Source: a virus. Taken from it: DNA of 39,383 bases. The stretch lies in the IMG/VR virus record IMGVR_UViG_3300032323_000936, positions 1-39,383 of that record, one strand, 5' to 3'. Under the pieces are notes generated by a model. It saw only the letters and a program-made list of their open reading frames with translations. It made no database searches and was not told where the DNA came from. Positions 6,088 through 36,137 of the stretch are shown in pieces (positions within the stretch are counted from its first letter, which is position 1; every line of letters begins with the position of its first letter). The position numbers were made by a program, and so were the translations under genes.

Positions 6088-9000
6088 ATGTCAGAATTTA
6101 AAATTAATAGATTTAGATACGTATGGAAAGGCAACTGGTCTTCAGCTACAGTATACAACAGAGATGATGTAGTTATTAGAACTGGTAATTTGTATTACTG
6201 TACGTCCCAACACACATCTACGGCAACATTTGCCACAGATCAATTAACCCGCTGGTCTGTAATGAGTGAAAGTTCTGCTTATAGAGGTGCATGGAATACT
6301 GCGATTGTTTATGCTGTAAATGATCTGGTAACGCACGGTGGTCAAATTTATAAATGTGTTACTAGTCATACCAGCCAAGCATTATTTTCTACAAATCTAG
6401 CCAACTGGCAACTGTATTTAGAATCTGTGAGATTCATTGGAGAATGGACCACCGGCACACAATATAAAGTAGGTGAAGCAGTTTCTCTATCTGGTGTAGT
6501 TTATGTGGCCAACACTGAGCACATCGCAGCAGGAACCTTAGAAGCTACTCAATCAAATTGGGACATTTATTTTTCCAACATAGAATATCGCGGAGATTTC
6601 ACTTCAAACGTTAGATACAATCTCAATGATCTTGTGAAATTTGGCGGCAGCATATGGCGCTGCAATGCATCACATCAAAGCGGTGATGACTCGACGTTAG
6701 ACTTCAACCAAGACTACTGGGATATGGAAATTCCCGGCCAAAATTTTACAGGAGTCTGGAATACCGACACTGGATATGGAACAGGCGATATTGTAAAATT
6801 TGGAGGCAGCCTGTATGTGGCTAGTCGACCAAATCAAGGATTGGCACCAAATGTAGAAACTCTTGATTGGACTCTACTAGCCAAGGGATTTGACTTTGCT
6901 GGAGATTGGTTATCTACAGCCGATTATGCAGTGGGACAAGTGGTTAGACACGGGGGTGTATTGTACGCAGCTAATACTGCTACTGTAGGTATCGATCCAG
7001 AAGTTGATACTCTAGTAGTTACAGTCACAGCTGGACAAAGCGGTGTTGAAGGCAACAGATATGCCATCGACGGAGTGCAGTATGGCCCAACACTGCAATT
7101 TTACACAGACATCACTTACCAATTTGATCAAACCAATCTCACAAACGTCTATTGGCCTAATCCTAATATCACCGGCGCTGTAAATCAACATCCTCTGCAT
7201 TTTTCCGCAGATAATCCCGACGGAGACAGTCACTCTGCTACAGGTACTGCCTATACAAGAAATGTAGTTTATCAACTAGATGGTAGAATTGTAAGCAGAG
7301 CAATTTATAATAGAGATTTTTCAATCTCGAAATCTCGTGTAGTAAGCATTACCGTTGATAGAGGTACGCCTGCAGTACTATATTACTACTGCCAAAATCA
7401 TTTGGGCATGGGCGGAACGATTAATATCAATCAAGCCACTGCAGGTATCGATCCAGCACTCAGCGCAGACTGGACAATGCTTGTTGATGGAGTAAGATAC
7501 CGAAACGGGTATCTTGATAATGTCAGTTACACTCGCGGTGATCTAGTAAGTTACAATAATAACATATACAAATGCATTGTTGCTCACGTATCTGACGCAG
7601 CAGAAACTTTCCCAGACAACGGCAATGGCACAGTGTACTGGGCTGTATATCTTGAAGGTGAACCCGACAACGCTTTAGAGCGTGTTGGTGATCTACTAAC
7701 TTTCGGACCTAAATCCGATACCAGCACACTAGGAGCTATCCCGGTGCATGTTGGTACCACAGACCAAGTTTTGGTTGTGCAGCCGGGAGAAGTGTTAAGC
7801 TACAATACTCTAGGAGAAGTTGCAAATGTACTGTATGTCAGCAACGACGGAATAGACCGTGAAGGTAGAGGTACCACTCCTGATAAACCATATGCCAGCA
7901 TAAAATTTGCGTGTATTCAAGCAGAAAAGTTAACCGGACTTAAAAAAATCCACGTATCAACCGGTTTATATAACGAAATTGGACCTATCAGTGTACCAGC
8001 AGGTACAGTGATTATAGGAGACGAATTAAGATCAACAACTATCAACGTAGATTCTGCATTGGCGGAGTATTCAAATGATGTGATCAAAATGCAAAATGCA
8101 TTGTTGAGACTGCTTGATATAATACCTAGCATTGTGTCTAACACTGTGATCGTTCCTACTGTGGGTAACACAGAACCACAGATACGATATCTACAACCTG
8201 GATCGTCAACTACAGCCACAGCCATACAGGATCGAATCAATGAAATAGCACAGTACATTGCCTTCCATGTACAGAGTAGCGGCACAGAACCTGTGATATT
8301 TGGTACTAATACCAGAGTAACCACAGCTAGTGTGCATCAGACCCTAGCTGTAATTGCAGCTAATAAACAATTTATTCTAAGCGAAATCGCAGCGTATGTT
8401 GCTGCTGCGTACCCCACCTATGTGTTTGATCCTGAAAGATACAGAAGAGATTTTGGATTAATAATTGATGCCTTGTTATACGACACTGAATATACAGGCA
8501 ACAGCAGATCACAAAGAGCAGCAAGATGGTATAGAAATTCTGTAGTGCCTGCAAAAGACGATTTGTTTTATTTTAGAAACGAAACTGGTCTTAGAAACTG
8601 TACCCTCAAGGGGATGACCGGAACGATTAATCCTCCAGGAGTATTTGAGTTATATCAACTGCCCACAGGTAAAGCATATTGTTCTCTTGATCCGGGATGG
8701 GGACCAAATGATGAGAGTGTATGGATCACTACTAGATCACCATATATCCAAGGAGTGACCAACATTGGTTCAAATTGTGTAGGACAGAAAATCGACGGTG
8801 CCTTGCACAACGGTGGCAATAGATCTATGGTGTCTAATGATTTCACACAGGTATTAAGTGATGGAATAGGAACTTGGGTTCTAAATAATGGTCGTGCTGA
8901 ATTGGTATCAGTATTCACATACTATTGTCAGATTGGTTATTTTGCAGAAGACGGCGGAAAAATTAGATCATTGAACGGCAATTGTTCCTATGGTACATTC

Positions 9001-11844
9001 GGAGCATATTCCTCAGGCAGAGACTTCACAGAAGTTCCTGGCACCGCACAGGTGTTTACAAAAACCACAGAAGCCATTATCGCTAACACCTTTGCAGGAG
9101 ATTTTGGAAGTAACATACAACTGATAGAATTTTTAAATGCTGGCATTGACTATAGTTCTGCTACATTTAATTTTGTTGGTAGCGGAATAGGAGCAGCGGC
9201 AGAAGGCAATGAAATACGTGATGGAGCAGTATATCAGGCTCGAGTAGCTGCTGCTGGAGATTCTACGAATCCAGGCGGCACCGGTTACATTGCAGTGAGA
9301 AGCAGTGCGCAACTTGGCGGCGGTTTTACTACTATTAAACTTTCTCAAACTGATTCAAACAGTATCTCAGAATATTTGGGAGTGAGAATTATCATTACTT
9401 CGGGTGTTGGTGTAGGACAATATGGATATATTACAGCATTTAATCCCACTACCAAAATAGCCAATGTGTCGAAAGAGTCTACCGGAGAACCGGGGTGGGA
9501 CCATGTTATTGAAGGCTACCCGTTAGTAGAGTCTTTTGAAAGCAATACCAATTACAGTATTGAACCAAGACCGTCTTTCACCGAACCACCTTATAATTCT
9601 AGCCCAGGCACCATGTATGCTGCATCAGCATGGCACAGTGTGACATTTGGGCCAACTGTGGAGACATATACAGTCACAGCTCCTTTAGGTTCCGGATCGT
9701 CACCAACTGCTGCTACGTTCATAGTGAATAAGAACGGCAAAAAATATACAGTGTCATTAGCAACTGCTGGTACCGGATATGTTGTCGATGATGAAATTAC
9801 TATATTAGGCACCAGTCTAGGAGGATTTGCTCCCGAAAATAATCTTGTTATTAGAGTAGACACAATAAATGGTTCTGGATCTATCGCTAATTTCAATAGC
9901 GAAGGAGTAGGCTGTAACGGTCTTTATGTCGTTACCACCAGCGACAGCGACAGAACTTCATTTAGTAAAAATGCCACTGCTTGGTCTAATGGCGGCAATC
10001 TACCAAGCAGCGGTAGTTGGAAAGTTACTGCAGGACAGAACAAGTTTGTAGCGGTAAAACTTAACAGCAGTGAAGCTGCTTATTCTACAGATTGTATAAC
10101 TTGGTCTCCTAGCAGTTTAAATTTGTCAAGAAACTGGTCGTCGGTTGTATATGGCAATGGTAGATTTGTAGCAGTAGCCACAAATCTTAATGCTGCGGCA
10201 TATTCTTTAGATGGCGTAACTTGGACGACTAGTTCGTTGCCTACAGCTGGCGATTCTACCATCAGTCAATGGACAGACATAGCCTACGGTGGCGGAAAAT
10301 TTGCGGCCATCGCAAATACCAACAATATCGTTGCTACTAGCACAGACGGTATCACGTGGGAAATTCATACCCATAACATCAACGACAGCTCACAGTTGGA
10401 TTGGGTGTCTATCGCCTACGGCAATAATAGATTTGTGGCATTGAGTAGCCAGGGTGTGGCCAGTTACAGTTTTGATGGCACTGAATGGTACGCATCAACA
10501 CTACCTACCCAAGACGGATCTACCATAATGAATTGGAAATCTATCAGCTACGGGCAAGGTGTGTTCCTTGCAGTATGCGACACTGGAGGAAACCCTATCG
10601 CCGGCGATGTTAACTCAGGCGAAACCAACTTTATAGCATCTAGTGAGGCCGGAGTCGTATGGACTGGTAGAGAGATCTTGTCAAGTAGAGTATGGAGTGA
10701 CGCTGTGTTTGGGAACAACAATCAACCTTTATGGGTGATCGTGGCTCCAAATACTTCAACAATGAATACCATACAATTAGGCGCAAGAACCAGAGGCAGG
10801 GTAGTAGTGGGTTCTGCTAGTGCCGTGCAACAGATTAGATTATGGGAACCAGGCAGTGCATATAATTCTGCGCCAACATTAACCATAGTGGATCCCACTA
10901 ATATCACTGATGTGTTTGTGATTAATAGATTAGGCAATGGTGTATTAGCTAATCCAAGTTTTGTAAATAGAGGCATAGGTTATCTTAGTGCCAGCACAGT
11001 AACTACAGTGTCTGGAGATGGATACGCAGATACCGTTCCGATTGGCACCACTGTGACCCTGACTAATATCACAGATATTCCAGGACCCGGAGCACAATTG
11101 GTGTTTGAAGGATATCCGGATATTTACAGTGTATCCACTATTACTCCTGTGTCACAGATTGCAGGAAACAACACCGTGACCTTTACCATAACCCCGTCCA
11201 TACCAGATTTTGACAGCTTTTTCGATGGGCAGGGAGTCACAATTTTTGAACGCTATAGTCAAATTCGAATTACCGGGCATGATTTTTTAGATGTCGGTAC
11301 TGGAAATTTCATAGAAACAAATTATCCCGATGTAGATCCATTGCAAGGACAGCCTTTTAATGAAGTGACTGAAACCAATGGTGGTAGAGTATTTTACACT
11401 TCTACAGACCAAGATGGTAATTTCAGAGCAGGCGATCTATTCTCAGTGCAACAGGCTACTGGTACAGTAACAGTTAATGCTCAGTTTTTTGATTTTGGAG
11501 GATTGACTGAACTTACATTGGGCGGAGTAAGTATAGGCGGATCTGGAGTTGTAATTAGAGAATTTTCAAAAGATCCAACGTTTGAGGCAAACAGCAATAA
11601 TATTGTGCCGACACAGCGTGCTATAAAATCATATCTTGCATCTAGATTAAGTGCAGGCGGTGATGAACTTGAATTACCCGGAGTACAAGCAGGATTTGTG
11701 TTGATAGAAGGATCACAAATTTCAAATATAGCAGGACAGACAATACAAGTAACGGCAAGAATGGATTTTTCAGGACCCAAAGCAAATATCAGTGGTAGCA
11801 TGTTGGCAGAGTCGTTCTTCCACAGATCTTTCAACGTTGATTAA
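6088..11844 (+). CDS. Giant fibre protein 1, 1918 aa, with inserted cupredoxin-like domain
   Basis: Domains in order: seven N-terminal repeats of about 50 residues (about 1-530) with pattern W..Y..GD.V..GG..Y.C...H, resembling carbohydrate-binding module 5/12 repeats. The sixth is split by a cupredoxin-like insertion (about 310-448) with H368/H371 and C435-x2-H438-x2-M441. A beta-helix-like region (about 580-1000) follows, opening VLYVSNDGIDREGRG and containing CSLDPGWGP and GQKIDGALHNGGN. A probable beta-propeller (about 1270-1560) has four or more YGNGRFVAV/YSLDGVTW repeats. The C-terminal domain (about 1740-1918) has GGRVFYTSTDQDGNFRAGDL and PTQRAIKSYLASR. It is most likely a tail or receptor-binding fibre. 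The ATG at 6088 gives MSEFKINRFRYVWKGNW, matching the start of giant fibre 2. Confidence 0.8.
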   Translation: MSEFKINRFRYVWKGNWSSATVYNRDDVVIRTGNLYYCTSQHTSTATFATDQLTRWSVMSESSAYRGAWNTAIVYAVNDLVTHGGQIYKCVTSHTSQALFSTNLANWQLYLESVRFIGEWTTGTQYKVGEAVSLSGVVYVANTEHIAAGTLEATQSNWDIYFSNIEYRGDFTSNVRYNLNDLVKFGGSIWRCNASHQSGDDSTLDFNQDYWDMEIPGQNFTGVWNTDTGYGTGDIVKFGGSLYVASRPNQGLAPNVETLDWTLLAKGFDFAGDWLSTADYAVGQVVRHGGVLYAANTATVGIDPEVDTLVVTVTAGQSGVEGNRYAIDGVQYGPTLQFYTDITYQFDQTNLTNVYWPNPNITGAVNQHPLHFSADNPDGDSHSATGTAYTRNVVYQLDGRIVSRAIYNRDFSISKSRVVSITVDRGTPAVLYYYCQNHLGMGGTININQATAGIDPALSADWTMLVDGVRYRNGYLDNVSYTRGDLVSYNNNIYKCIVAHVSDAAETFPDNGNGTVYWAVYLEGEPDNALERVGDLLTFGPKSDTSTLGAIPVHVGTTDQVLVVQPGEVLSYNTLGEVANVLYVSNDGIDREGRGTTPDKPYASIKFACIQAEKLTGLKKIHVSTGLYNEIGPISVPAGTVIIGDELRSTTINVDSALAEYSNDVIKMQNALLRLLDIIPSIVSNTVIVPTVGNTEPQIRYLQPGSSTTATAIQDRINEIAQYIAFHVQSSGTEPVIFGTNTRVTTASVHQTLAVIAANKQFILSEIAAYVAAAYPTYVFDPERYRRDFGLIIDALLYDTEYTGNSRSQRAARWYRNSVVPAKDDLFYFRNETGLRNCTLKGMTGTINPPGVFELYQLPTGKAYCSLDPGWGPNDESVWITTRSPYIQGVTNIGSNCVGQKIDGALHNGGNRSMVSNDFTQVLSDGIGTWVLNNGRAELVSVFTYYCQIGYFAEDGGKIRSLNGNCSYGTFGAYSSGRDFTEVPGTAQVFTKTTEAIIANTFAGDFGSNIQLIEFLNAGIDYSSATFNFVGSGIGAAAEGNEIRDGAVYQARVAAAGDSTNPGGTGYIAVRSSAQLGGGFTTIKLSQTDSNSISEYLGVRIIITSGVGVGQYGYITAFNPTTKIANVSKESTGEPGWDHVIEGYPLVESFESNTNYSIEPRPSFTEPPYNSSPGTMYAASAWHSVTFGPTVETYTVTAPLGSGSSPTAATFIVNKNGKKYTVSLATAGTGYVVDDEITILGTSLGGFAPENNLVIRVDTINGSGSIANFNSEGVGCNGLYVVTTSDSDRTSFSKNATAWSNGGNLPSSGSWKVTAGQNKFVAVKLNSSEAAYSTDCITWSPSSLNLSRNWSSVVYGNGRFVAVATNLNAAAYSLDGVTWTTSSLPTAGDSTISQWTDIAYGGGKFAAIANTNNIVATSTDGITWEIHTHNINDSSQLDWVSIAYGNNRFVALSSQGVASYSFDGTEWYASTLPTQDGSTIMNWKSISYGQGVFLAVCDTGGNPIAGDVNSGETNFIASSEAGVVWTGREILSSRVWSDAVFGNNNQPLWVIVAPNTSTMNTIQLGARTRGRVVVGSASAVQQIRLWEPGSAYNSAPTLTIVDPTNITDVFVINRLGNGVLANPSFVNRGIGYLSASTVTTVSGDGYADTVPIGTTVTLTNITDIPGPGAQLVFEGYPDIYSVSTITPVSQIAGNNTVTFTITPSIPDFDSFFDGQGVTIFERYSQIRITGHDFLDVGTGNFIETNYPDVDPLQGQPFNEVTETNGGRVFYTSTDQDGNFRAGDLFSVQQATGTVTVNAQFFDFGGLTELTLGGVSIGGSGVVIREFSKDPTFEANSNNIVPTQRAIKSYLASRLSAGGDELELPGVQAGFVLIEGSQISNIAGQTIQVTARMDFSGPKANISGSMLAESFFHRSFNVD
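6979..7456 (+). repeat. 22-nt direct repeats flanking the cupredoxin-like insertion
   Basis: The sequences at 6979-7000 (gctactgtaggtatcgatcc, then ag) and 7435-7456 (gccactgcaggtatcgatcc, then ag) differ at two of 22 bases. They encode ATVGIDP and ATAGIDP and bracket the inserted cupredoxin-like domain in the sixth N-terminal repeat. They are spaced 456 bases apart, a multiple of three. The reading frame is kept, as expected for a domain gained by in-frame recombination. Confidence 0.8.
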
Positions 11845-11876: not shown

Positions 11877-14800
11877 ATGGCAGAATTTAAACTAGGTAGA
11901 ATAAAATTTGTTTGGAAAAACACGTGGACCGCAGCCACGGTGTATTATGTTGATGACATAGTACGTGTGGGCGGAAGATCCTATGTGTGTGTGGTAGGCC
12001 ACACCGCATCGGCTGATTTCAACACAGATCTTGAAGCTGCTACCCCAAGATGGAATTTGTTCTCTAGCGGGAACAATTGGAGAGGCGAATGGACCACATC
12101 CACATTATATCAACTAGGCGATCTAGTAAAATATGGTGGCAATGTCTATAACTGCAATGACAGTCACACTTCAGCAGCCACAGCTGTGTCCGGTCTTGAA
12201 TCAGATCAAGCCAAATGGGACACTTTTGTAGCAGGATTAGAGTATAAAGGTGTTTGGACCACAAGCACCCGTTATAAAATCAATGACCTTGTACGATATG
12301 GCGGAATAACCTATGTTTGTGACACTGGTCATACATCTGCTGCAACCGCGAGTCTTGGTCTCGAAGATAATCAAGCTGCATGGACCTCCTTCAACGAAGG
12401 TATAGAATACAAGGGCACATGGAGTAGTAGCTCGGTTAGATACAAGATCAACGATGTAGTAAAATACGGCGGCGGAACATGGATATGTGTGACTCAGCAT
12501 ACTTCCGACCCAACATTTGCCACAGCTAATTTTGCACAATTTGCCGAAGGCATAGAATACGAAGCTGCATGGAGTTCAGGAACTGTTTATCAAGTAGGAG
12601 ACATTGTCAGCTTCGGTGGAAATCAATACATTGCTCTACAGATACACAGCGCACAGACTCCATCTACGGCCACTGATTATTGGAGTTTATTCTCCGAAGG
12701 CTTTGACTTCCAGGGTGATTGGAATTCAGGCACAGCCTATAAAATCGGACAGGTAGTACGTCTAAATGGCTACACCTATTTGGCCACCGCAGACAGCACA
12801 GCTCAAGAACCTCCTAATGTCACCTTTTGGCAACGTCTAAATTACGGTATTTTTTGGAGAGGCGAATGGCAAAACAGCACTGCTTATAAAGCAGGTGATG
12901 CTGTAAGATTTCAAACAAATACTTTTATCTGTATTTTGGCACACACCAGTGCAGATGATGATTCAACAACTACAGGAGATGTTGGCCGTAGCCCAGCAAC
13001 GGATACCGCCGGTATATATTGGAACGCACTCACACTAGGCAGCGAACTATCGCCATTGTCAGTGACAGGCGATCTAGTTTATTATGGCGGAGCAGGACCT
13101 ACACGTTTACCTATAGGTACAACTGGACAAGTTCTCAAAGTCAGTTCCGCCGGAATTCCTGAATGGGATCAGTTTTGGGGTACTGATCATGTATACTACG
13201 TCAAACCGACAGGTACCGATGTACCATATCCTCAAGGCGGAGGAACATTAGATACAGCTTGGAAAACCATAAGATACGCCTGCGAACAGGTAGAACGTGG
13301 ACCACGTTATCCAAATGCACGATATCTATTAGAACTAAATCGTGTGTTTATTCAACGCGAAGTCACAGAATTTATTCAGCGTCAAATCACCACAAACACA
13401 GCACCATTTACCTCTGCATTCGTCTATGATGATTTCAAATGCGAACGAGATGTGGGATTCACAGTAGATGCTGTGATCTATGATCTGTGCCATGGCGGTA
13501 ATATTAAATCACGTGGAGTTGCTAATTCATTGATTGGCGGGCTCAGCGAAGAAGAAACAGAAGCATATCCAGGATTAGCCATTGAATCAGATGAATCTGT
13601 AGCTGCCTACAATTACATGCTCACAGTTATTGGAAATGTATTAGCACAAACAGCTCCAACAATAAATTATCAGACACTGAACGGCGACAATTCTACTGCC
13701 ACAGTGGCCCAATATTTCAACAGCGATCTCACAGCAGAAACCGGGGCATTGGCTAATGTGACAGCAAGTGTTACACTGATCACAAATGCTATCACAGCTA
13801 GAGCAGCAGCGGTCACAGCATCTCAAATAGCAGCAGCTATAGCCAGTGTACCAGCAAGATATAGTCCTAGTAATCTTATAAAAATTGCCACAGGTCAATA
13901 TCGTGAAACATTACCAATCATAGTACCAGAGCAGACCTGTGTGATTGGTGATGAACTGCGTTCAACCAATGCAGGACCTGCAGGTAGTCAGACCAATAGA
14001 TCCGACGCAGGCTACAGCGTAGGCGCACTAACTAGATTGTCAGCAGTGGTTGATCAAATTGTACGAGGAGCCAACGTCACAGAAAGCTCAGGAAATACAG
14101 AAGTCCAAAGCGCATCATTCCCATATGCCAGCACTGAAGAAGCAGCAGATGCTGCACAGTTGGTCAGAGTCATGCAGCATCAGATTGATTTCAAGATCAG
14201 TTCTACATTCATGGTGAGTTCTGCAGACCCCACAGGATACAACACATCATTCTTAACGGGGTTCGGCGACGCAAGAACACTGCTACGTGAAAACAAAGAA
14301 TTTATCAAAGAAGAAATCACTGCTTTCTTGAATCAGAATTTTAGTTCATTGAAATTCAGCAGAACCAAATGCAAGAAAGATGTGGCATTTATTGTTGATG
14401 CCATGGGCTATGATTTGACGTATGGCGGAACCTGGGCTACTCTAGTAGCTGGCACCGCATATTTTGACGGTGACAACAGCACACAACTACAGATCGACAG
14501 TTCAGAAATCACAGCCACAGTAGCCGCTTATGGTAGGTTAAAGACTGTGGTGCAACAAATTATCGCCAATACCGCAGTGACAAAATCCACAGGCAATGCT
14601 GCCACTCAGTGGACCGACAGCACTAATTTAACAGGCGGTGCAGCAGCTAACGCAACAGTTGGTTCATTGGTAGATATTATCACCAATATCATACAGGGTG
14701 ATAGTACAGAAGCCATAACACCACAGATTACTATTACCACTATAACTGGTACCAACACACTTACCAGTAACAGTCATGGTTTAAGTGTAGGCGATGCTGT

Positions 14801-17800
14801 TATTCCTAGAGAAACCAGCAACGGGTTAACCAACGGTGTTAAATATTGGGTAGTAGGCACCGTTGACGCCAACACATTTCAACTTGCAGCCACATATGGT
14901 GGCAGTGTGTTGGCTACATTTACCAACGGTACCGGCATCAGCATACCGGTAGAAGTTATAGATTATCCTACTGCAACCAATGGTGTAACATCAACCACTG
15001 CGTTGATAGCTGCGGCTGTGACTCTAGATGCTGCACAAGAAACTATAGTTTCAAACGCCACAGCATTTATTGCCGCAAACTTCCCCGCATTGGTCTACAA
15101 TTCAGCTAAGTGTGAAAGAGATACTAGACTTATCTTAGAAGCAGTAATGTTTGACTTTATGTTTAACAGCAACTTTAAGACTAGAGAAGCTGCTTATTCA
15201 TATCTCCGTGCAACTGCCAACGATGTGTATTCATTAAATCAAAAGGCGGCTACTCGTGCAGCATTTACCTATGTAAAAGACCAAGCCAAGGCCAACGTCG
15301 GAGGCAATGCAACTGCTCAATCTCGTATTGAAACGTTGATGACCACCTTAGATGATATTGTCTATGGTGCTACCAACGAAGGAAGTCGCTGCGCCACAGG
15401 TAATAGAATGGTTGACTACGCTGTTCTACAATTAGAGCGAAACAGATCATACATTGTAGCAGAAATTGATGCTTACATTAACTCAACCTATACCACCACA
15501 GTCACAGCTGCCACAGCAGCAACCGACGTGTTTACCTGCACATCGACTGCTTGGATGACAAGAAACGCAGCTATTAGATTTACTGGTACAACATTTGGCG
15601 GAATAAGCACTGCTACCACATACTATGTACAGAATGTGGTCAATGCGACCACATTCAAGATAGCTGCCGCTAGAGATTCAGATATACCTTTGAATATTAC
15701 CAGTGACAGCAGTGGTTCTATGACCGTGGCTCTGTACTACAGCAGTGCTGCTTGTCTCAGAGATGTTAATACATATATTGATGCATTGAAATACGATTTG
15801 AAATATCCAGGCAACTACAAATCTAGATACGCAGCTAGATACTATGCTAATAGTGTAACAGGCAGCTTGGAAGAAGACATGTACTATCTCAGAGACTCTA
15901 CCGGAGTCAGAGATATGACTCTACAAGGATTAACTGGCGATTTACTAGCTGAAAATGAATTTGGTACTTCTAGAGTGTCAGCCGGTGCCTACTGTTCATT
16001 GGATGCAGGATGGGGTCCAGAAGATTATCGCACATGGATTATTAATCGTTCACCATATGTACAAGGTGTAACCACATTAGGTACAGCTTGCGTTGGACAA
16101 AAAATTGATGGTGCGTTACATAATGGCGGCAACGATTCTATTACATCCAACGACTTCACACAGGTACTAAGTGATGGTATCGGTGCATGGATTACCAACA
16201 ACGGTCGTGCTGAATTGGTATCTGTGTTTACATATTATAATCACATAGGATATCTTGCTGAAAACGGCGGAAGAATACGTGCTACCAACGGCAACAACTC
16301 ATACGGTGATTTTGGTGCAGTAGCTGAAGGGTTCGACGATTCAGAAACTCCAAATACTGCTGTGATAGATAATCAGAGCAGATTTGTTGCAATAGCCGAT
16401 GTGAGTGTAGACGGAACAAGTGCGGTTGGACTGGAATTCCATAATGCTGGCAGCGACTACTCAGAAGCCACAGGATCCTTTAGCGGTCAAAGCGGTATTG
16501 TTGCTGAAGCAGAATTTGATGAATTTAGAGACGATGCGGTTTTCCAAGTGCGTCTAACTACCACAGGTGACGATTCTAGCGGACAATTTGGCGGTGACGG
16601 ATTTATTACTGCTGAAGGCACAGCACAAGGTGGATCTTCTACGAGCATAACAATATCAGCTACTGACGGCAATACATCAGCAGCTTATGTAGGCATGAAG
16701 ATAGTGTTAGATGGTGGAGCAGGCCGCGGCCAATACGCTATTATACAATCTTATAACAGCGGAACCAAGATTGCCAACGTGATAAAAGAATCCGATGGCA
16801 CAGCAGGATTTGATCACTTCTTGTCAGGCAGTGCAATTACTGCTCCTAATTCTTCTACTACATACATGATAGAACCTGCAGTATCGTTTACAGCTCCTTC
16901 ATATACCAGCACAGCTAGCACACTGCCAACTTCAGGCACATGGACTGCGGTAAAATATGGTGAAACTGCTGCGGTGTATACTACACTAACAGGAACCTAT
17001 GCGGGTATAGGTGTCGGTGCAAGATTCACAGTGATACGCAATGGATGGAAATACACACCATCTCTACAAACCGCTGGCACAGGTTATACAAGATTACAAA
17101 CCATAACAATTTTAGGTACAAGCCTAGGCGGTACAACTCCTACAAATGATCTAACGATTACAATTACCGCAGTGAATTCCACCACAGGTGCTATCTTAGA
17201 CTTTGATCATGTTGGATATGGCATTGGTGGTAGATATGTGGCCTTAAGAGCAGGCAGCACAGTAGGTGCAACATCCGAAGACGGTGTGTCATGGTCCACT
17301 AGAGCCAGCTTGATGCCAAGTGGTGCAAACTGGTTAGCAATGACCGCCGGCATGTTGGATGATGGATCCTCAATTGGTAAAGTCAGTAGATTTGTGGCAG
17401 TAGCAGGAGGCAGTGCCAATACCACTGGAGCATACAGTGACGACGGTATTACTTGGTCAGCAGTCAGTATGCAAACTTCTGCAACATGGGTGGATGTAGC
17501 GTTTGGCAAACAATTATTTGTGGCAATCGCTAGTGATACTACAACGGTGAGAATCGCTGATTCAGCTAGTGATGTGATAGCCTGGAGTCTAACAGGCACA
17601 TTAACCACAACTGGATTTACAGCTATCGCCTACGGCAAAAATAGATTTGTTACTATCAAGAGTGGTACTGATGTTACTAATTATGCTACATCAGACACAG
17701 TTACAGGAACGTGGACTGCTGGTACACTGCCTGTTAGTTCAAATTGGAACAGCATTGCTTACGGTAACAACAGATTTGTTGCGATATCCGGCACCAGCGG

Positions 17801-19118
17801 AACCATTGCTGCTTACAGCTTAGACGGTGTTACATGGACAGCTAGTACACTACCAGCTACTGCATTATGGACTAAAATTACTTACGGTCAGGGAGTATTC
17901 CTTGCTGTAAGCACAACCACAGCAGCAGCAACATCACCGGATGGCATTACATGGACTCTAAGAGCAACCAGCACAGCAGCCGCTGGATTCTCAGCAGTGA
18001 CCTTTGGTAATAGAAATAGATACGGATTGTTTGTGGGTGTCGGAGCCGGTACAAGTGATGTTGCTACATATATCAGAACCGGAGCCACAGCTAAAGGCCG
18101 TGCAGCAGTAGCTGATGAAAAAATATTTGAAATTAGAATCACTGAACCAGGATCTGGTTACAGCACAGCACCAACAATGACAGTGACAGATCCCAACAAC
18201 ATCTTTGAATTACCTCACACTGTGAGAGTAGGTAAATCAGCATTGGGTATTCCAAGTTTTATAAATGGCGGCACTGGATACAGCACCGGTGATGTGGTAA
18301 TTGCAGGGGACGGATACGCAGACAATTTACAATCCGGCGGTATTATTGCAGTTAGACAGCTAACTGCTATACCTAAAAACGGCAGCAACATTGTTTTTGC
18401 TCATCTACCAGATAGAAATTTCAAACTAGTAGCTGTAACTGGATTACTAGGCGGCAACGATGGATCTCGTAGAGCATTTTTCCAAGTCAGTCCTGTGCTG
18501 CAGATTTTTGAAGCTCCAGACAATGGAACATCATTAAATACCAGAATTCGTTTCAGCCAAGCACGTATGACCGGCCATGATTTCCTTGATATAGGTACTG
18601 GAAATTTTGCTGAAACAAACTATCCAGGTACACCAACACAGGATACTAGACCAGCCAATGAAACAGTGGAAAATGGCGGCGGCAGAGTGTTCTTTACCAC
18701 AACAGATCAGGATGGTAATTTCCGAGTAGGAGATCTGTTTAATATCGAGCAGAGCACTGGTGTTGCTACTTTAAACGCAGATGCATTTAATATTTCTGGC
18801 CTGCAGGAATTAAGTCTTGGTGAATTCACATTAGGTGGCGGTTCAGCCACAATCACTGAGTTCTCTACAGATCCATTCTTCACTGCTAACAGTGATTCAG
18901 TGATACCAACACAGCGAGCTATTAAATCATATATAGCTAGCCAAATTGGAGGAGGAGGTGCCAGCCTTAACGTTAACAGCATAATCGCAGGCACCGTACA
19001 GGTATCGGGTTCAACAATTACCACTACTGGCAACGAAACGATAACTATGAATGCAAGGTTCAATTTCCGTGGTGGTATCTCGGGATTACCTTTAGCATTT
19101 AATTATTTCTTTTATTAA
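11877..19118 (+). CDS. Giant fibre protein 2, 2413 aa
   Basis: Paralog of the 6088 protein with the same ends: MAEFKLGRIKFVWKNTW at the start and PTQRAIKSYIASQ near the C-terminus. It has seven uninterrupted N-terminal W..Y..GD.V repeats (about 1-400). The linker before the beta-helix is expanded. The motif C.RDV...(D/E)A..YDL occurs four times (near residues 521, 832, 1078 and 1292), against once in giant fibre 1. The shared beta-helix core (CSLDAGWGP, GQKIDGALHNGGN; about 1340-1500) is followed by a propeller-like region (about 1780-2070; YGNNRFVAI, YSLDGVTW) and the GGRVFFTTTDQDGNFRVGDL C-terminal domain. It has its own late box and a GGAG site. It likely forms part of a long tail fibre; the precise position on the particle is unknown. 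Confidence 0.8.
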   Translation: MAEFKLGRIKFVWKNTWTAATVYYVDDIVRVGGRSYVCVVGHTASADFNTDLEAATPRWNLFSSGNNWRGEWTTSTLYQLGDLVKYGGNVYNCNDSHTSAATAVSGLESDQAKWDTFVAGLEYKGVWTTSTRYKINDLVRYGGITYVCDTGHTSAATASLGLEDNQAAWTSFNEGIEYKGTWSSSSVRYKINDVVKYGGGTWICVTQHTSDPTFATANFAQFAEGIEYEAAWSSGTVYQVGDIVSFGGNQYIALQIHSAQTPSTATDYWSLFSEGFDFQGDWNSGTAYKIGQVVRLNGYTYLATADSTAQEPPNVTFWQRLNYGIFWRGEWQNSTAYKAGDAVRFQTNTFICILAHTSADDDSTTTGDVGRSPATDTAGIYWNALTLGSELSPLSVTGDLVYYGGAGPTRLPIGTTGQVLKVSSAGIPEWDQFWGTDHVYYVKPTGTDVPYPQGGGTLDTAWKTIRYACEQVERGPRYPNARYLLELNRVFIQREVTEFIQRQITTNTAPFTSAFVYDDFKCERDVGFTVDAVIYDLCHGGNIKSRGVANSLIGGLSEEETEAYPGLAIESDESVAAYNYMLTVIGNVLAQTAPTINYQTLNGDNSTATVAQYFNSDLTAETGALANVTASVTLITNAITARAAAVTASQIAAAIASVPARYSPSNLIKIATGQYRETLPIIVPEQTCVIGDELRSTNAGPAGSQTNRSDAGYSVGALTRLSAVVDQIVRGANVTESSGNTEVQSASFPYASTEEAADAAQLVRVMQHQIDFKISSTFMVSSADPTGYNTSFLTGFGDARTLLRENKEFIKEEITAFLNQNFSSLKFSRTKCKKDVAFIVDAMGYDLTYGGTWATLVAGTAYFDGDNSTQLQIDSSEITATVAAYGRLKTVVQQIIANTAVTKSTGNAATQWTDSTNLTGGAAANATVGSLVDIITNIIQGDSTEAITPQITITTITGTNTLTSNSHGLSVGDAVIPRETSNGLTNGVKYWVVGTVDANTFQLAATYGGSVLATFTNGTGISIPVEVIDYPTATNGVTSTTALIAAAVTLDAAQETIVSNATAFIAANFPALVYNSAKCERDTRLILEAVMFDFMFNSNFKTREAAYSYLRATANDVYSLNQKAATRAAFTYVKDQAKANVGGNATAQSRIETLMTTLDDIVYGATNEGSRCATGNRMVDYAVLQLERNRSYIVAEIDAYINSTYTTTVTAATAATDVFTCTSTAWMTRNAAIRFTGTTFGGISTATTYYVQNVVNATTFKIAAARDSDIPLNITSDSSGSMTVALYYSSAACLRDVNTYIDALKYDLKYPGNYKSRYAARYYANSVTGSLEEDMYYLRDSTGVRDMTLQGLTGDLLAENEFGTSRVSAGAYCSLDAGWGPEDYRTWIINRSPYVQGVTTLGTACVGQKIDGALHNGGNDSITSNDFTQVLSDGIGAWITNNGRAELVSVFTYYNHIGYLAENGGRIRATNGNNSYGDFGAVAEGFDDSETPNTAVIDNQSRFVAIADVSVDGTSAVGLEFHNAGSDYSEATGSFSGQSGIVAEAEFDEFRDDAVFQVRLTTTGDDSSGQFGGDGFITAEGTAQGGSSTSITISATDGNTSAAYVGMKIVLDGGAGRGQYAIIQSYNSGTKIANVIKESDGTAGFDHFLSGSAITAPNSSTTYMIEPAVSFTAPSYTSTASTLPTSGTWTAVKYGETAAVYTTLTGTYAGIGVGARFTVIRNGWKYTPSLQTAGTGYTRLQTITILGTSLGGTTPTNDLTITITAVNSTTGAILDFDHVGYGIGGRYVALRAGSTVGATSEDGVSWSTRASLMPSGANWLAMTAGMLDDGSSIGKVSRFVAVAGGSANTTGAYSDDGITWSAVSMQTSATWVDVAFGKQLFVAIASDTTTVRIADSASDVIAWSLTGTLTTTGFTAIAYGKNRFVTIKSGTDVTNYATSDTVTGTWTAGTLPVSSNWNSIAYGNNRFVAISGTSGTIAAYSLDGVTWTASTLPATALWTKITYGQGVFLAVSTTTAAATSPDGITWTLRATSTAAAGFSAVTFGNRNRYGLFVGVGAGTSDVATYIRTGATAKGRAAVADEKIFEIRITEPGSGYSTAPTMTVTDPNNIFELPHTVRVGKSALGIPSFINGGTGYSTGDVVIAGDGYADNLQSGGIIAVRQLTAIPKNGSNIVFAHLPDRNFKLVAVTGLLGGNDGSRRAFFQVSPVLQIFEAPDNGTSLNTRIRFSQARMTGHDFLDIGTGNFAETNYPGTPTQDTRPANETVENGGGRVFFTTTDQDGNFRVGDLFNIEQSTGVATLNADAFNISGLQELSLGEFTLGGGSATITEFSTDPFFTANSDSVIPTQRAIKSYIASQIGGGGASLNVNSIIAGTVQVSGSTITTTGNETITMNARFNFRGGISGLPLAFNYFFY

Positions 19119-27999: not shown

Positions 28000-29670
28000 A
28001 TGAGAAAAATTTTTAGCATACCACTTAATCCAAAATTAAATGAACAACAATTCAATGAATTTTATGAATTTTGCAAACAGTATAAAGATTGGATTTATGA
28101 CATTTACTTTACAAGTCGTATCGCACCTTTTAATCAAGACGCGATGGGAGATATCTTTATCTTACAAGAAGATACTTCTAGCCTTATAGAAAATGCTTGG
28201 AATATACAACAACATTTGGGTATACCTATCAGTGCAACATTCAACAATACCACAGTACCGCCAACACAAAAAAACTTAGATACATTCATTAAGAATTTCA
28301 AACCGTTGTATGATGCAGGGATACGCAATGCAACAATTCCTCACACACATTGGATGGCTACAGGACAGCTCAAAGCTGCTTTTCCTGAGTTATTTGTTAA
28401 AAATACAATTTTAAGAGATGTTAACACAGCGGTGGAAGTGGTAAATCTAGCCAAGAGTGGATTTGATTATATAAATCTTGACAGAGATCTAATGCGGGAT
28501 AGAGATACACTGCTGAGATTGAAAGAAGCCAAGCGATGGATCAAAACAAATTTACACAAAGATATTAAATTTAGCCTACTAGCCAATGAGGGATGTTTGG
28601 GTGCCTGTCCTATGATGGTAGAACATTTTGAATACAACAACACAAGAACCGGAGATAATCCACAGTATTTCAATGATCCTATCAGTCGAGTGAGCTGCCC
28701 AAAGTGGGAAGTAGATGACCCTGCTGTGTTTTTAAAAACTGCAAATTTCAGTCCATGGAAAGAAGATTGGGATGAGTATCTAGATGTACTTGGAATAGAT
28801 GTTTTTAAGATGCATGGTAGAGAAAGCATAGATCGATTAGAAGAAACAATGACTTTGATTAAACGATATGCAGCAGATGAGAAATTTGTTTGGGGTACTT
28901 TTGAGAAATGGACCGAAGAATGTCAACTTCAAGAAAGACCAATACAAGTGTGGCGAGATAAAATACGTAACTGTAAATTTGATTGCTGGGAATGCCAGTA
29001 CTGTGATAAAATTCATGAAAAGAAAAGTCCGTATGATTACTCAGACATTATTAAACACGTGGCGCAATGTGTATTAGATTCTGGTGTGCCAAAAATAAAA
29101 AATAACATTCCTGGCCTTACCAGCATGAGAGTACAAACTTTGTTGAATTCGATCGCTAAGGGAGTGGGAACTTATCTAGAAGTTGGCAGCTATCTAGGAG
29201 CAACCGGGTGTGCAGTGCTGGAAAACAATGTGTTGAATGCCAACTTTGTGGACAATTGGAATCAAGATCTTCAGCCTAACTCTAACGATCTACAGTTGGA
29301 CGCCAATAACAAACAGAAATTTTTAGAAAATATTGAAAAACACAAAGGAATGTCTAATGTCCAGGTATTTGACTGTGATATTTTTGCAACGCCAATTGAA
29401 TTATTGCACAATCAGATTCAAATGTTTTTTTACGATGGTCCGCACGACCGACAAACAACCAAAGAAGCAGTGCAGTATTTTTGGAGTACATTCACAAACG
29501 AAGCAGTGTTGATATTCGATGACGCTAATTGGGAAGGTGTTATAGATGGAGTAAATGAGGGTATTGCAGACATGAACGGAACTATAGCTTATAAAAAAGC
29601 CATATTGAATGACGAGGAAAGCAGTTCGGAGTGGTGGAATGGTATATACATTGTCGTGGTAAAAAAATGA
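28000..29670 (+). CDS. U32-like Fe-S domain fused to a SAM methyltransferase, 556 aa
   Basis: The N-terminal part (about 1-345) resembles the peptidase-U32/UbiU-type TIM-barrel family. It has strand-like IYDIYFTSR and ISATFNNTTVPPTQ, a barrel-type 'FDYINLDRDLMRDRDTL', and the family-like NEGCLGACPM, here with C199 and C203. Further cysteines are C233 and a C-terminal cluster C325, C329, C332 and C335, enough for an Fe-S cluster. The C-terminal part (about 375-556) is a class I methyltransferase (YLEVGSYLGATG at 392-403; FYDGPHDRQTT from 477). In U32 proteins studied, such barrels take part in hydroxylation or RNA modification chemistry. The fusion is unusual and the substrate unknown. The stop overlaps the halogenase start. 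Confidence 0.55.
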   Translation: MRKIFSIPLNPKLNEQQFNEFYEFCKQYKDWIYDIYFTSRIAPFNQDAMGDIFILQEDTSSLIENAWNIQQHLGIPISATFNNTTVPPTQKNLDTFIKNFKPLYDAGIRNATIPHTHWMATGQLKAAFPELFVKNTILRDVNTAVEVVNLAKSGFDYINLDRDLMRDRDTLLRLKEAKRWIKTNLHKDIKFSLLANEGCLGACPMMVEHFEYNNTRTGDNPQYFNDPISRVSCPKWEVDDPAVFLKTANFSPWKEDWDEYLDVLGIDVFKMHGRESIDRLEETMTLIKRYAADEKFVWGTFEKWTEECQLQERPIQVWRDKIRNCKFDCWECQYCDKIHEKKSPYDYSDIIKHVAQCVLDSGVPKIKNNIPGLTSMRVQTLLNSIAKGVGTYLEVGSYLGATGCAVLENNVLNANFVDNWNQDLQPNSNDLQLDANNKQKFLENIEKHKGMSNVQVFDCDIFATPIELLHNQIQMFFYDGPHDRQTTKEAVQYFWSTFTNEAVLIFDDANWEGVIDGVNEGIADMNGTIAYKKAILNDEESSSEWWNGIYIVVVKK

Positions 29671-31181
29671 AAATTATAAAAGCAAATAGAATAACAATCT
29701 TTGGTGGCGGAACAAGCGGCTGGCTTACTGCAGCTTATCTCGTAAACAATTTAAAATTTCCATGTGAAATTACTCTGATAGAAAGTACTGTACTCGGACC
29801 CATCGGAGTTGGTGAAGGTACGCAACCCGCCACTACTAGATTCATGTATGATGCTGGTATTCCTCCAAAAACATGGATGCAACCTAGTAATGCTGTATTT
29901 AAATTTGGAGTGGAATTAGATGGGTGGACCGATGCCCCATATTTTGTAGATAATGATTTTATTGAAAATACAAAAATTACAAAAAGTTTTTACACCACGG
30001 ATTACTTTGTAAATCGTCCACCAAAAGAATTTTTTGATTGGTTACCTGCCTATGTCATGGCAAAAGCCAATAAAAGTCCTAAGCTAGGTGGATACGATAC
30101 AAACTTTGGTTTTACCGATGATAGACAGTTTGGTGCTGTGCATTTTGCAGCATTTGACATAGTAGATACTTTGAAAAAAATAATCGGAGACAAAATAAAA
30201 TATTTTGATACTAAAGTAACTGATGTAAAAGTAGATAACGAAGGTATACAAAGTTTAATTGATCAAGAAGGAAGAGTCCACACCGCAGATCTGTTCATTG
30301 ATTGCAGCGGATTTGCCAGTGTATTGTTAGAAAAAAATCTAGGAGTTGAGTTTCAATCAGTCACTGACATCTTGCCTTGCGATCGAGCAGTAGCCATGCC
30401 TACACAATATGTAGACGCAGAAAAAGAATGTCATCCGTATACCAAAGCCACCGCAATGACGGCAGGATGGCGCTGGACTATTCCAATCTTTAATCGTATA
30501 GGCAACGGATATGTTTACAGCAGTAAACATATCACACCAGAAGAAGCAGAAAAAGAATTAAGAAATTCTATTAACGAATACACTGCCGAAGCCAGACATC
30601 TTGAAATGAAATGTGGAATTCACAAAGTAGTCGCACATAAGAATGTGGTAGCAGCAGGCCTAAGTGCAGGATTTGTAGAACCATTAGAAGCTACGGGTAT
30701 CACATTCACTACAAAAGCTGTAGAAATACTCACAGGCGTTCTCAATCAGAATCAAGGCATATGGAATAACAGTGGTAAAAGTACATTAAATGATATCTAT
30801 GATAGAGCATTTTGGGAGATTGTGGCATTTATATGGATACACTATCATTTCAGCACCAAAAAAGACACAAAGTTTTGGCAGGACATTCACAGACAAAGTG
30901 CTGAAAATATTCCGCCAAGGGTTTTAGAACTAGTAAATCAATTTTTCCCATCACCGTCGAACAAGTTTTTTATATACCCCGAAAGCAATTTTCACGTGGG
31001 ACATTGGTTTAGTGTACTACATGCCGGCGGAGTATATAAAAATCACCCGCCGATACTCGACGGTGATCAAGAAAAATACGCTGAATATTTTGTAAAGAAT
31101 AACAGATTTAGATGTCAACAGGTATTGGAAACTTTTCCTAATCATTATGCATTTTTAAAATCTTGGTATGAAAATAAATGA
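29667..31181 (+). CDS. FAD-dependent halogenase, PrnA/VirX1-like, 504 aa
   Basis: The FAD-binding GGGTSGW is at 13-19. The halogenase signature W-R-W-T-I-P is at 268-273. The catalytic Lys equivalent to PrnA K79 is at residue 79 (NAVFKFG). The catalytic Glu equivalent to PrnA E346 is at 341 (EPLEATG). Known members use reduced flavin, O2 and halide to form HOX, which travels to the Lys; the cyanophage Syn10 enzyme VirX1 iodinates many substrates. The true start is the ATG at 29667, overlapping the previous stop as ATGA; an upstream in-frame ATG at 29631 would add 12 residues inside the previous gene. No separate flavin reductase is seen in the window, so host FADH2 is likely used. Substrate and halide preference are unknown. 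Confidence 0.88.
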   Translation: MKIIKANRITIFGGGTSGWLTAAYLVNNLKFPCEITLIESTVLGPIGVGEGTQPATTRFMYDAGIPPKTWMQPSNAVFKFGVELDGWTDAPYFVDNDFIENTKITKSFYTTDYFVNRPPKEFFDWLPAYVMAKANKSPKLGGYDTNFGFTDDRQFGAVHFAAFDIVDTLKKIIGDKIKYFDTKVTDVKVDNEGIQSLIDQEGRVHTADLFIDCSGFASVLLEKNLGVEFQSVTDILPCDRAVAMPTQYVDAEKECHPYTKATAMTAGWRWTIPIFNRIGNGYVYSSKHITPEEAEKELRNSINEYTAEARHLEMKCGIHKVVAHKNVVAAGLSAGFVEPLEATGITFTTKAVEILTGVLNQNQGIWNNSGKSTLNDIYDRAFWEIVAFIWIHYHFSTKKDTKFWQDIHRQSAENIPPRVLELVNQFFPSPSNKFFIYPESNFHVGHWFSVLHAGGVYKNHPPILDGDQEKYAEYFVKNNRFRCQQVLETFPNHYAFLKSWYENK

Positions 31182-31783
31182 TAGTGCAAAAAGAGATTCT
31201 TTGGCCGATTGATTTTAGAAAATACTCTGTTGAATTTACCGAGTGCAAAAAATATCTGCTTGACCTACTAGAGAATTTAAAAGAGCTTGGATTTAATAAT
31301 TCAGCTGATCTCCAAGGCAACACCACAGTCAACGGTTTTCAACCAGATATAGATATTTTGAGTATCTCCGACCCGATAATAGATAAAATAAAATCTGAAA
31401 TTATTGAACCCATAAGTGAAGAATTTTGGCAAAGTTTAAGAAAAGATAGAATTTCAGATACAGAAAACTTAAAATTAATTCACAAAGCGTGGCTAGTAGA
31501 ATATAAAGAAGGCACATATCAAAATCTTCATGTGCATAAGACAAGCCTTTTTACTTCTATATGGACTATATATTGTGATCCGCAGCAGCCCAAGGCCGCA
31601 CAACTGCATCTTCATAATCCCATAACAGAAAGTTGGGCTTTAGGTTTTTTTCAAGAAACTATAAAAATCAACCCTGAACAAGATGTCATTTACGTTTTTC
31701 CTGCTTGGATTGCACACAATGTTACACCATCGACCGCCAGACGTGTGGTATTTGTTTGGGATACCATTGCGGTTCCTGCTTGA
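31178..31783 (+). CDS. 2OG-Fe(II) oxygenase-like (Oxy_5 type), HxH motif, 201 aa
   Basis: Start overlaps the halogenase stop (ATGA). The C-terminal half has the double-stranded beta-helix layout: W105-LVEY, H118-V-H120, SIWTIYCD, LHLHNP, then EQDVIYVFPAWIAHNV with H180 and a final R188/R189. This resembles the putative 2OG-Fe(II) oxygenase family often seen in marine phages. The usual Asp/Glu of HxD/E is His here, so iron ligation or even activity is uncertain. A TTVNGFQ segment at 49-55 recurs as TTVNGWQ in the 33155 protein, showing the two are paralogs. The partner and substrate are unknown; gene order suggests it acts on the same molecule as the halogenase. Confidence 0.65.
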   Translation: MIVQKEILWPIDFRKYSVEFTECKKYLLDLLENLKELGFNNSADLQGNTTVNGFQPDIDILSISDPIIDKIKSEIIEPISEEFWQSLRKDRISDTENLKLIHKAWLVEYKEGTYQNLHVHKTSLFTSIWTIYCDPQQPKAAQLHLHNPITESWALGFFQETIKINPEQDVIYVFPAWIAHNVTPSTARRVVFVWDTIAVPA

Positions 31784-33719: not shown

Positions 33720-36137
33720 ATGACAACAAACGCTCTTTCTGTAAAAAACCTTAGACTACTACCTGCAGATACTGGATTTTTAGATAGAAAAATTGGTAGC
33801 AGCGGTGAAATTTTTTATGACCGCACAGACAATACTATTAGGTATTTTGATGGGACCACTCAGGGCGGCACCGCATTGGCCATTGACGATTTATCCAATG
33901 TATCAAAAACAGCATTTGTTAGTTTAGCAAGCACATCTGGATTGTTTGGTCCAAACATTCATATACATAATACTGTTGTAAACAGCAATTTGCCTTCGGG
34001 CGATAAAGACTATGTAACGTTTACAGTGGGTACCAATGACATCACAGCATTGTACCTAACAAAATACATAGGTGTTGACCTAAAAGCCTTCTTTGCTATC
34101 CAAGAAGGTGATGCATGGACTGCTGGTGAAAATGTCAATCAAATGTTAACCTACGGGCATCTTGGTCCATGGGACCCGTCGCTTGCCGTTGGAAGTAACA
34201 TATTAGCCGGGAACCCATTAAAACCACAAGCTGTGACATTAACAGCAAATACTACATATACCGTGTGGATTCAACAAACTGGATCAAACATTACAGAATA
34301 TGCCCTTAGCACAAATCCTTATTGGGTGCCGGCAACTGCAGATCTTCCTGCAAACTATTCAGGCGATCCTGCCAATCCAACTATACTATATCAAGACGGT
34401 GCAGGACAAGGTGGACAACTGACACTAGTGGCAGGATCAAATATAACTATTACTACTGATCCTATTACCGATGTTACTACCATAGCTGCTACCGCGGTAG
34501 CATCAAACAGTTTCACTACTATTGCTGTAGCAGGTCAATCCAACGTTGCAGCAGATTCTACCACGGATACGCTGACATTGACGGCAGGCACTGGCATTTC
34601 AATTACTACTAATGCTGGTACAGACACCATAACAATCACCAATACGGGTACCAGCCAAAATACCTTCAACACCGTGGCAGTGGCAGGACAAAGTTCGGTG
34701 GTGGCAGATTCCGCCACAGACACTCTTACGCTTGTCGCTGGGTCTGGTATTACTCTAACTACCGATGCTAGTACAGACACCATTACTATCACAGGCACAG
34801 CCAGCACAGGTAACATAACTTTTGTGGCCAACATCATAGACAGCATAGATAGTTCTGCAATTACATTTACTCCTAGTGTGGTCTTTGAAAGCGATATCAC
34901 AGTAGGAACAGACATTGTGTTTCCTGATGGATCTAGGCAAAGTACTTCTGCTGTAGGAATACCAGGACCTCAGGGTCCAGCGGGACCTGCCGGTGCTACT
35001 GGTGCAGGAACTGGTGATGTTATTAGTGCCGGGGGCGGCTATGTTGATAACGCTATCATACGATATGATGGTGTAACAGGAACTATTATACAGAACAGTT
35101 CTGCAACTATATCAGATGCTGGACTACTTACGGCTACAAATTTTAGTGGTGGCGGTGCGGCGCTTACTGCATTAAACGCTACTCAATTAACTTCTGGCAC
35201 AGTACCAGATGCAAGATTCCCAGCAACATTACCAGCGGCAAGCGGTGCTAATCTCACAGCACTGAATGCTTCAAACTTAGGCAGCGGTACTATACCAGAT
35301 TCACGGTTCCCAGCAACATTACCAGCGGCAAGCGGTGCTAATCTCACAGCACTTAACGCCACTGAATTAACTTCTGGTACCGTTCCAGATGCACGTTTTC
35401 CAGCTACATTACCTACAGCTAGTGGAGTAAATCTCACAGCACTGAATGCTTCGAACTTAGGCAGCGGCACTGTTCCAGTTTTGAGACTAGGCGCATCCGG
35501 CACTAGAGACGCTACTACGTTCTTGAGAGGTGATAATACATGGGCTACGACTGGTGGATCAGTAAATAGTTTCAGCATTATAGACGTAGCAGGACAAGCT
35601 CAAATAGAAGCCGACACTACCAACGACACATTGACATTAGTAGCAGGTGCTAATATAACAATAACCACCAGTCCTCTAAGCGATACAATTACCATTGCTG
35701 CTGCCAGCGGCGGTGTTAGCACGTTTAGTGCGTTAACTGAAGCAGTATCCGCTTCTTTAACTATAGATGAAATATATCTACAAGCCATCACTAGATTAAT
35801 AGTGACCAATAACGGCAGTTTTTCCTATCTCTTCGATCAATATTCCGGAGAAAATCCCACTATATATGCCATAGCCGGAATGACCATTGCTTTTAATTTG
35901 AATGTTCCAGGCCATCCATTTTTGATACAGGACGGCACCGGTACAAATTATAGCACTGGACTAGTACATGTCAGCACTTCTGGAGTAGTCACTACCGGAG
36001 CAGCAGCACAAGGTCAAGTGTTTGGTACACTATATTGGAAAGTACCAGCAAGTATTTCCGGCGGCTACAGATATCAATGTTCTGTTCATCCAGTGATGGT
36101 CGGTGCAATAACTGTCAAGGGTATTGTCAGTCTATAA
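33720..36137 (+). CDS. Fibre protein with collagen-like triplets and C-terminal amicyanin-like copper site, 805 aa
   Basis: The N-terminus MTTNALSVKNLRLLPADTGF followed by GEIFYDRTDNTIRYFDGT is a fibre-docking type. Two related 'VAGQS..ADS.TDTLTL' modules lie at about 265-370 and a third (VAGQAQIEADTTNDTLTL) near 623. Six G-X-Y triplets (GIPGPQGPAGPAGATGAG) sit near 414-431. A 30-residue tandem repeat with PDARFPATLPAASG and LTALNA spans about 478-588. The C-terminal domain (about 680-805) ends YRYQCSVHPVMVGAITVKG: with H732 in GHPFLIQ, the ligands C787-x2-H790-x2-M793 reproduce the spacing of the type I copper site in amicyanin. It is a late fibre; metal binding at its tip is predicted, not shown. 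Confidence 0.78.
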   Translation: MTTNALSVKNLRLLPADTGFLDRKIGSSGEIFYDRTDNTIRYFDGTTQGGTALAIDDLSNVSKTAFVSLASTSGLFGPNIHIHNTVVNSNLPSGDKDYVTFTVGTNDITALYLTKYIGVDLKAFFAIQEGDAWTAGENVNQMLTYGHLGPWDPSLAVGSNILAGNPLKPQAVTLTANTTYTVWIQQTGSNITEYALSTNPYWVPATADLPANYSGDPANPTILYQDGAGQGGQLTLVAGSNITITTDPITDVTTIAATAVASNSFTTIAVAGQSNVAADSTTDTLTLTAGTGISITTNAGTDTITITNTGTSQNTFNTVAVAGQSSVVADSATDTLTLVAGSGITLTTDASTDTITITGTASTGNITFVANIIDSIDSSAITFTPSVVFESDITVGTDIVFPDGSRQSTSAVGIPGPQGPAGPAGATGAGTGDVISAGGGYVDNAIIRYDGVTGTIIQNSSATISDAGLLTATNFSGGGAALTALNATQLTSGTVPDARFPATLPAASGANLTALNASNLGSGTIPDSRFPATLPAASGANLTALNATELTSGTVPDARFPATLPTASGVNLTALNASNLGSGTVPVLRLGASGTRDATTFLRGDNTWATTGGSVNSFSIIDVAGQAQIEADTTNDTLTLVAGANITITTSPLSDTITIAAASGGVSTFSALTEAVSASLTIDEIYLQAITRLIVTNNGSFSYLFDQYSGENPTIYAIAGMTIAFNLNVPGHPFLIQDGTGTNYSTGLVHVSTSGVVTTGAAAQGQVFGTLYWKVPASISGGYRYQCSVHPVMVGAITVKGIVSL
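35154..35485 (+). repeat. 90-bp in-frame tandem repeat in the 33720 fibre
   Basis: About 3.7 units of 90 bp (30 residues) run through this stretch. For example the block starting TTCCCAGCAACATTACCAGC at 35217 recurs exactly at 35307 and continues identically for more than 40 bases. Period and frame are kept, as in a fibre shaft that can lengthen or shorten by recombination. It is not a CRISPR: there are no unique spacers. Confidence 0.85.

Follow-up and report, generated by a model that had tools for sequence, protein, structure and literature searches.

The sixth carbohydrate-binding repeat of a giant tail fibre encoded in the window, as we term the entire 39,383-nucleotide stretch of viral DNA analyzed here (IMG/VR record IMGVR_UViG_3300032323_000936), was found to be interrupted by a domain predicted to adopt the cupredoxin fold. 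Sequence comparisons indicate that this insert is a lineage-specific gain of a reusable module. Taken as a whole, our explanation, namely that a cupredoxin-fold cassette was gained by recombination within the loop of repeat 6 and forms a metal-held surface module, is considered rather probable.

Giant fibre 1 (GF1; 6088–11844, plus strand) is encoded by an intact frame of 1918 codons, and its 1918-aa product comprises seven CBM_5_12 repeats followed by a beta-helix-like body, which was identified as that of a tail fibre by its match to phrog_9851 (E 1e-160). The seven stretches were assigned to CBM family 5/12 (PF02839) with an E value of 1.9e-40 and 137 bits, where the gathering cut-off is 26.2. 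The first part of repeat 6 (6892–7005, plus strand; FDFAGDW...GGVLYAANTATVGIDP) covered positions 1–35 of the 52-position CBM profile and breaks off after GGVLYAANTATVGIDPEVD, while the missing end, ALSADWTML, resumes at 7457 in the remainder of the repeat (7457–7488, plus strand; ALSADWTMLVDG), followed by repeat 7 as located with the CBM HMM (7519–7659, plus strand). The insertion site lies in the long loop of the repeat, between the GGxxYxA strand and the conserved Trp. Giant fibre 2 (GF2; 11877–19118, plus strand), the paralog of GF1, carries seven uninterrupted CBM repeats, the sixth of which is whole with the sequence GYTYLATADSTAQEPPNVTFWQRL. An original prediction made from the DNA letters alone had claimed that about 140 residues split the sixth GF1 repeat and that its GF2 counterpart is uninterrupted, and both points were confirmed by the open reading frame, the CBM HMM stretches, the codons read directly, and the comparison of the GF2 repeats. 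An assembly chimera or a sequencing artefact might also create such an arrangement, and no near-identical contig was found among the viral contigs searched, a search that may omit such records; however, the 1918-codon frame runs open through both joins, the repeat unit is restored in register, and the insert has the same GC and GC3 as the fibre, so that an artefact appears most improbable. The same composition gives no mark of foreign origin.

The window also encodes a tail-sheath-stabiliser-like protein (36903–38423, minus strand), whose best matches were to the large-genome phages Phosso and PA5oct, and contigs related to the window reach 353 kb; the window thus probably represents part of a jumbo myovirus genome. 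Homologs of a tryptophan halogenase and a 2OG-Fe(II) oxygenase were located among its structural genes (29631–31783).

The inserted domain (residues 309–449, approximately; 7012–7434, plus strand) was delineated by a domain HMM match, an AlphaFold2 model, and comparisons by Foldseek and VIA-align. The model, built from 35 relatives, displayed a pLDDT of 88.3 and a pTM of 0.84. When it was compared with the PDB by Foldseek, the best 50 matches were all cupredoxins or cupredoxin-domain proteins, including CotA, rusticyanin, AcoP, CueO, ascorbate oxidase, and factor V, with a best E value of a modest 1e-3. VIA-align superposed 105 residues on the N-terminal cupredoxin domain of the Hyphomicrobium Cu nitrite reductase (Z 9.2, rmsd 2.5–2.7) and gave Z values of 8 to 9 with small laccases; furthermore, 55 viral matches were obtained with an E value of 1e-3 or less, and several of those with names were cyanophage structural proteins. 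The insert is accordingly modeled as a Greek-key beta-sandwich of cupredoxin topology, which places it in the cupredoxin fold superfamily, and the cupredoxin-like domain originally proposed was supported by the model and by both structural comparisons, a model lacking this fold having been the outcome that would speak against it. At the sequence level, the window domain gave no match to the Copper-bind family (Pfam PF00127) at E ≤ 1, its relatives reached a best E value of 0.0022, and the insert was not assigned to that family; a profile search of PDB sequences likewise returned matches at chance level only. In a combined model of repeats 5 to 7, the junctions were weak (pLDDT under 50).

Direct reading of the codons located the ligand pattern at H368 (7189–7191), C435 (7390–7392), H438 (7399–7401), and M441 (7408–7410). 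In the model, H368 (model residue 72) stands before the strand 74–77, C435 (139) closes the strand 134–139, and H438 and M441 (142 and 145) are situated in the loop preceding the strand 147–152, a predicted arrangement that reproduces the cupredoxin layout of an ordered, type-1-like His ... Cys-x(n)-His-x(n)-Met ligand set. The C-x2-H-x2-M spacing is that of amicyanin. These His, Cys, His, and Met residues occupied some of the best conserved columns of alignments having 32–36% mean column identity, and H..C-x2-H-x2-M was kept in all nine of the gp9-type domains of isolates, which were sampled down the ranking and not chosen by the motif. The four residues were also kept in 41 of 46 dereplicated domains, a biased set in which many rows had been fetched with the pattern LYYYCQNH. 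Metal binding is supported because the ligands are conserved, and the sequence evidence makes copper binding by the inserted domain likely. The insert might instead be a beta-sandwich spacer only, whose ligand residues are relics holding no metal. Indeed, the ligands were lost in two of the six insertion classes described below, namely in L062/L072 (N,S,N,M) and in L178 (first His gone, second His replaced by Asn), as well as in the PSS2 domain and partly in the P-RSM6 domain; the fold thus survives without them, and the metal is dispensable in the L062/L072 and L178 copies. Nevertheless, against the conservation of the four columns and their retention in the domains not selected by motif, the spacer explanation seems rather unlikely.

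The original prediction had raised a possible copper site on a phage fibre; that such a site is singular was not supported, because another copy of the domain lies in the window itself and many baseplate proteins of cyanophages carry it. This second cupredoxin-like domain (GHPF...C-x2-H-x2-M; 35799–36125, plus strand) is divergent and occupies the C-terminus of an 805-aa, gp9-connector-like structural protein belonging to phrog_677 (baseplate wedge / tail fibre connector), and a search with it recovered at least 190 cyanophage records carrying the domain on the baseplate connector. By sequence, the GF1 insert matched 28 phage records, which were cyanophage structural proteins and mostly of the baseplate. 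It was also assigned to PHROG 708 (baseplate wedge subunit; E 3.9e-10 over query residues 11–146), a match limited to the domain part of the 1383-position profile. A scan of genome contigs, the pattern of which demanded C-x2-H-x2-M, further revealed related domains at 31 loci in marine bacteria and archaea with best-segment identities of 25–53%. Given the second copy and the cyanophage records, a cupredoxin-type domain is not unusual for phages.

To delineate the distribution within the fibre family, 372 CBM-repeat fibre ORFs from viral contigs were reduced to 171 distinct fibres, 11 of which carried the domain at six positions: inside repeat 6 in the window only, between repeats 6 and 7 in L069, L030, and L041, where repeat 6 begins in L062 and L072, within the second repeat of the GF2-type paralog in L070, L077, and near-copies, at the beta-helix start in L042, L045, and L057, and, in L178, within the linker that follows repeat 7. 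The CBM-repeat fibres of the isolates P-SSM2, Mosig, and S-CAM1, having five or six repeats, lacked it, and when the N-terminal 605 residues of GF1 served as the query against viral contigs, no relative was returned. Relatives both with and without the insertion were therefore found, most lacking the domain and others carrying it elsewhere. The situation in which all relatives would share the domain at the same place without a repeat did not occur, and the claim that it is an insertion and not an ancient fixed part was upheld. The fibre tree contains five changes that would be compatible with losses, as expected if the domain were ancestral in the family and had undergone many losses with an apparent drift in position; however, its absence from 160 of the 171 distinct fibres, together with the six positions in different repeats, paralogs, and fibre parts, which loss alone cannot produce, has already largely refuted this scenario, leaving it very improbable. 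Rather, the domain looks like a mobile building block scattered over the fibres and baseplates of many aquatic phages. Other small domains were observed within CBM repeats 5 and 6 of the GF2-type fibres L009, L031, and L058 and the GF1-type fibre L047, those of L009 and L031 being similar to residues 1217–1286 of the window GF2 (36–41%); from these inserts, CBM loops look like a general site of insertion.

The insert was shown to be bracketed by a 22-nt direct repeat, whose left copy (6979–7000, plus strand; ATVGIDP codons) and right copy (7435–7456, plus strand; ATAGIDP codons) are identical at 20 of 22 positions. Their starts are spaced by 456 nt, equal to 152 codons, and both copies hence lie in the same frame, in accord with the near-identical, in-frame repeats originally described. 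The extent of 7015–7456 first given for the insert needed partial revision: 7015 stood as the domain start, but the left repeat fell just outside, the bracketed unit being 6979–7456. This repeat was the sole pair of 22-mers in GF1 with two or fewer mismatches, and no such pair was found in GF2; in a codon-shuffle control, a comparable pair within 600 nt arose in 1% of 200 shuffles of GF1. Cutting out one repeat copy together with the domain produced a 49-aa repeat that covered all 52 positions of the CBM profile, which was built without the window sequences, and scored 42.9 bits, compared with 37.8 bits for the first part alone, while excision registers 4 to 12 codons further right scored nearly equally (40.1 to 43.5 bits). 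The excised repeat would fit a short loop duplication around the insert, short of proving it. The 14 other insertions compared, all in related fibres, lacked flanking repeats above the shuffled expectation, and the repeat was unique to the window; since a later local duplication gives the same sequence, the original interpretation of the repeat as the scar of the domain gain was not supported, although an insertion fossil is still plausible. As for a transposable element, the insert has no terminal inverted repeats and codes for the domain alone, and this candidate was rejected. No Rfam element was found near the insert.

The history of the gain was assessed with a fibre-body tree (53 rows, 1234 columns) built on the C-terminal 1300 residues of the fibres, a region that does not contain the insert. 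In this tree, the window was separated by a well supported split from L069, L030, and L041, and forcing them into a single clade was rejected (AU p=0.0011), arguing against a single shared origin with the nearest similar architecture; such trees are to be read with the caveat that fibres recombine. The domain tree lacked resolution and neither supported nor rejected the grouping (AU p=0.44). The GF1 of the sister contig L169 (1851–7385), nearest by the upstream gene, has seven ordinary repeats and no insert and is 43% identical, and the upstream protein is 90% identical, a disparity pointing to a fibre gene that has been exchanged or is fast diverging. It may be argued that an earlier gain placed the cupredoxin between repeats 6 and 7, its position in L069, L030, and L041, and that a later local duplication with trimming of the repeat-6 tail made both the window arrangement and the direct repeat. 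Consistent with this, the N-terminal 560 aa of GF1 match those three fibres straight through the insert, the domains of the window, L069, and L030 have in common an additional NxYxPNxN segment preceding the first His, BLAST within the initial set of loci matched the insert best to L069 (43.6%) and L030 (42.1%), repeat 6 of GF1 is without the DGSSLDYLD tail seen in other sixth repeats, and the other insertions have no flanking repeat. Set against the rejection by the fibre-body tree, the neutrality of the domain tree, and the ordinary length of the excised repeat, we judge this earlier gain unlikely as the full account. Because fibres recombine, and given the N-terminal match and the extra segment, the module may have been transferred laterally, or the fibres may share an older gain that was afterwards remodelled locally. 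The closest sampled relative domain was approximately 45% identical to the insert; no sampled domain was close to that of the window, and neither these domains nor the domain tree pointed to a donor.

On the preferred explanation, a gain within the repeat-6 loop itself, the fibre lineage would have acquired a compact cupredoxin-fold beta-sandwich as an in-frame cassette, most likely through recombination with another phage structural gene bearing the module; baseplates of aquatic myoviruses commonly have this module, and it occurs on fibres too. The 22-nt repeat would then represent a short loop duplication that was retained or arose at the junction. Accommodated in a surface loop, the sandwich would allow the fibre still to assemble and to acquire an extra lateral knob, most likely an add-on surface or binding module, and one metal ion, probably copper, at H368/C435/H438/M441 would stabilize or tune the fold of this knob. 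We infer the recombination route, the metal binding, and the surface role alike. A broader proposal is put forward as a speculative one that we hold doubtful. In it, a copper-binding cupredoxin would be a regular mobile part of the machinery with which aquatic T4-like and jumbo myoviruses adsorb, present on fibres and gp9-type baseplate connectors; in-frame insertion into tolerant loops would have carried it from one CBM-repeat fibre to another, and its metal would act in adsorption or triggering.

Phage fibres help determine which bacteria get infected, and GF1 presents a fibre gaining a whole folded domain within one of its repeats, and numerous relatives without the interruption can be set beside it. 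It also highlights a metal-site domain that lacks this annotation and that occurs in baseplate proteins from at least 190 cyanophage records. Should copper be bound, whether it influences how stable phages are and how they adsorb becomes a testable question.

Domain shuffling in fibres is already known, and no description of a cupredoxin module on phage virions was found in the literature, which is weak evidence as most subscription journals and preprints were outside the scope; in the literature searched, cupredoxin and cyanophage occurred together only in a work on Borg elements. The Ig-like domains of tailed phages are reportedly optional, laterally spread beta-sandwiches found in various proteins and positions, whereas the GF1 insert is of the cupredoxin type, has a conserved set of metal ligands, and resides inside a carbohydrate-binding repeat. 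The shuffling resembles the recent domain shuffling described in receptor-binding, fibre, and baseplate proteins, a study in which cupredoxin is unmentioned (PMC10684548). In the Ferrojan Horse hypothesis, iron-binding motifs have been proposed on the tail fibres of marine phages (PMC11705849); the metal in question there is iron, in contrast to the copper-type fold and ligands predicted for the GF1 insert. The cyanophage baseplate wedge/gp9 connector proteins of PHROG 708 and 677 carry the same domain as the insert (E 4e-10), but they belong to the baseplate and not to a CBM-repeat fibre, and their PHROGs annotation does not include cupredoxin. Finally, although the insert differs from the plastocyanin/amicyanin-type cupredoxins in its extra helix, its long segment before the first His, its lack of a significant PF00127 match, and in that its copper is predicted, it is like them and the N-terminal domain of Cu nitrite reductase in fold, ligand order, and spacing.
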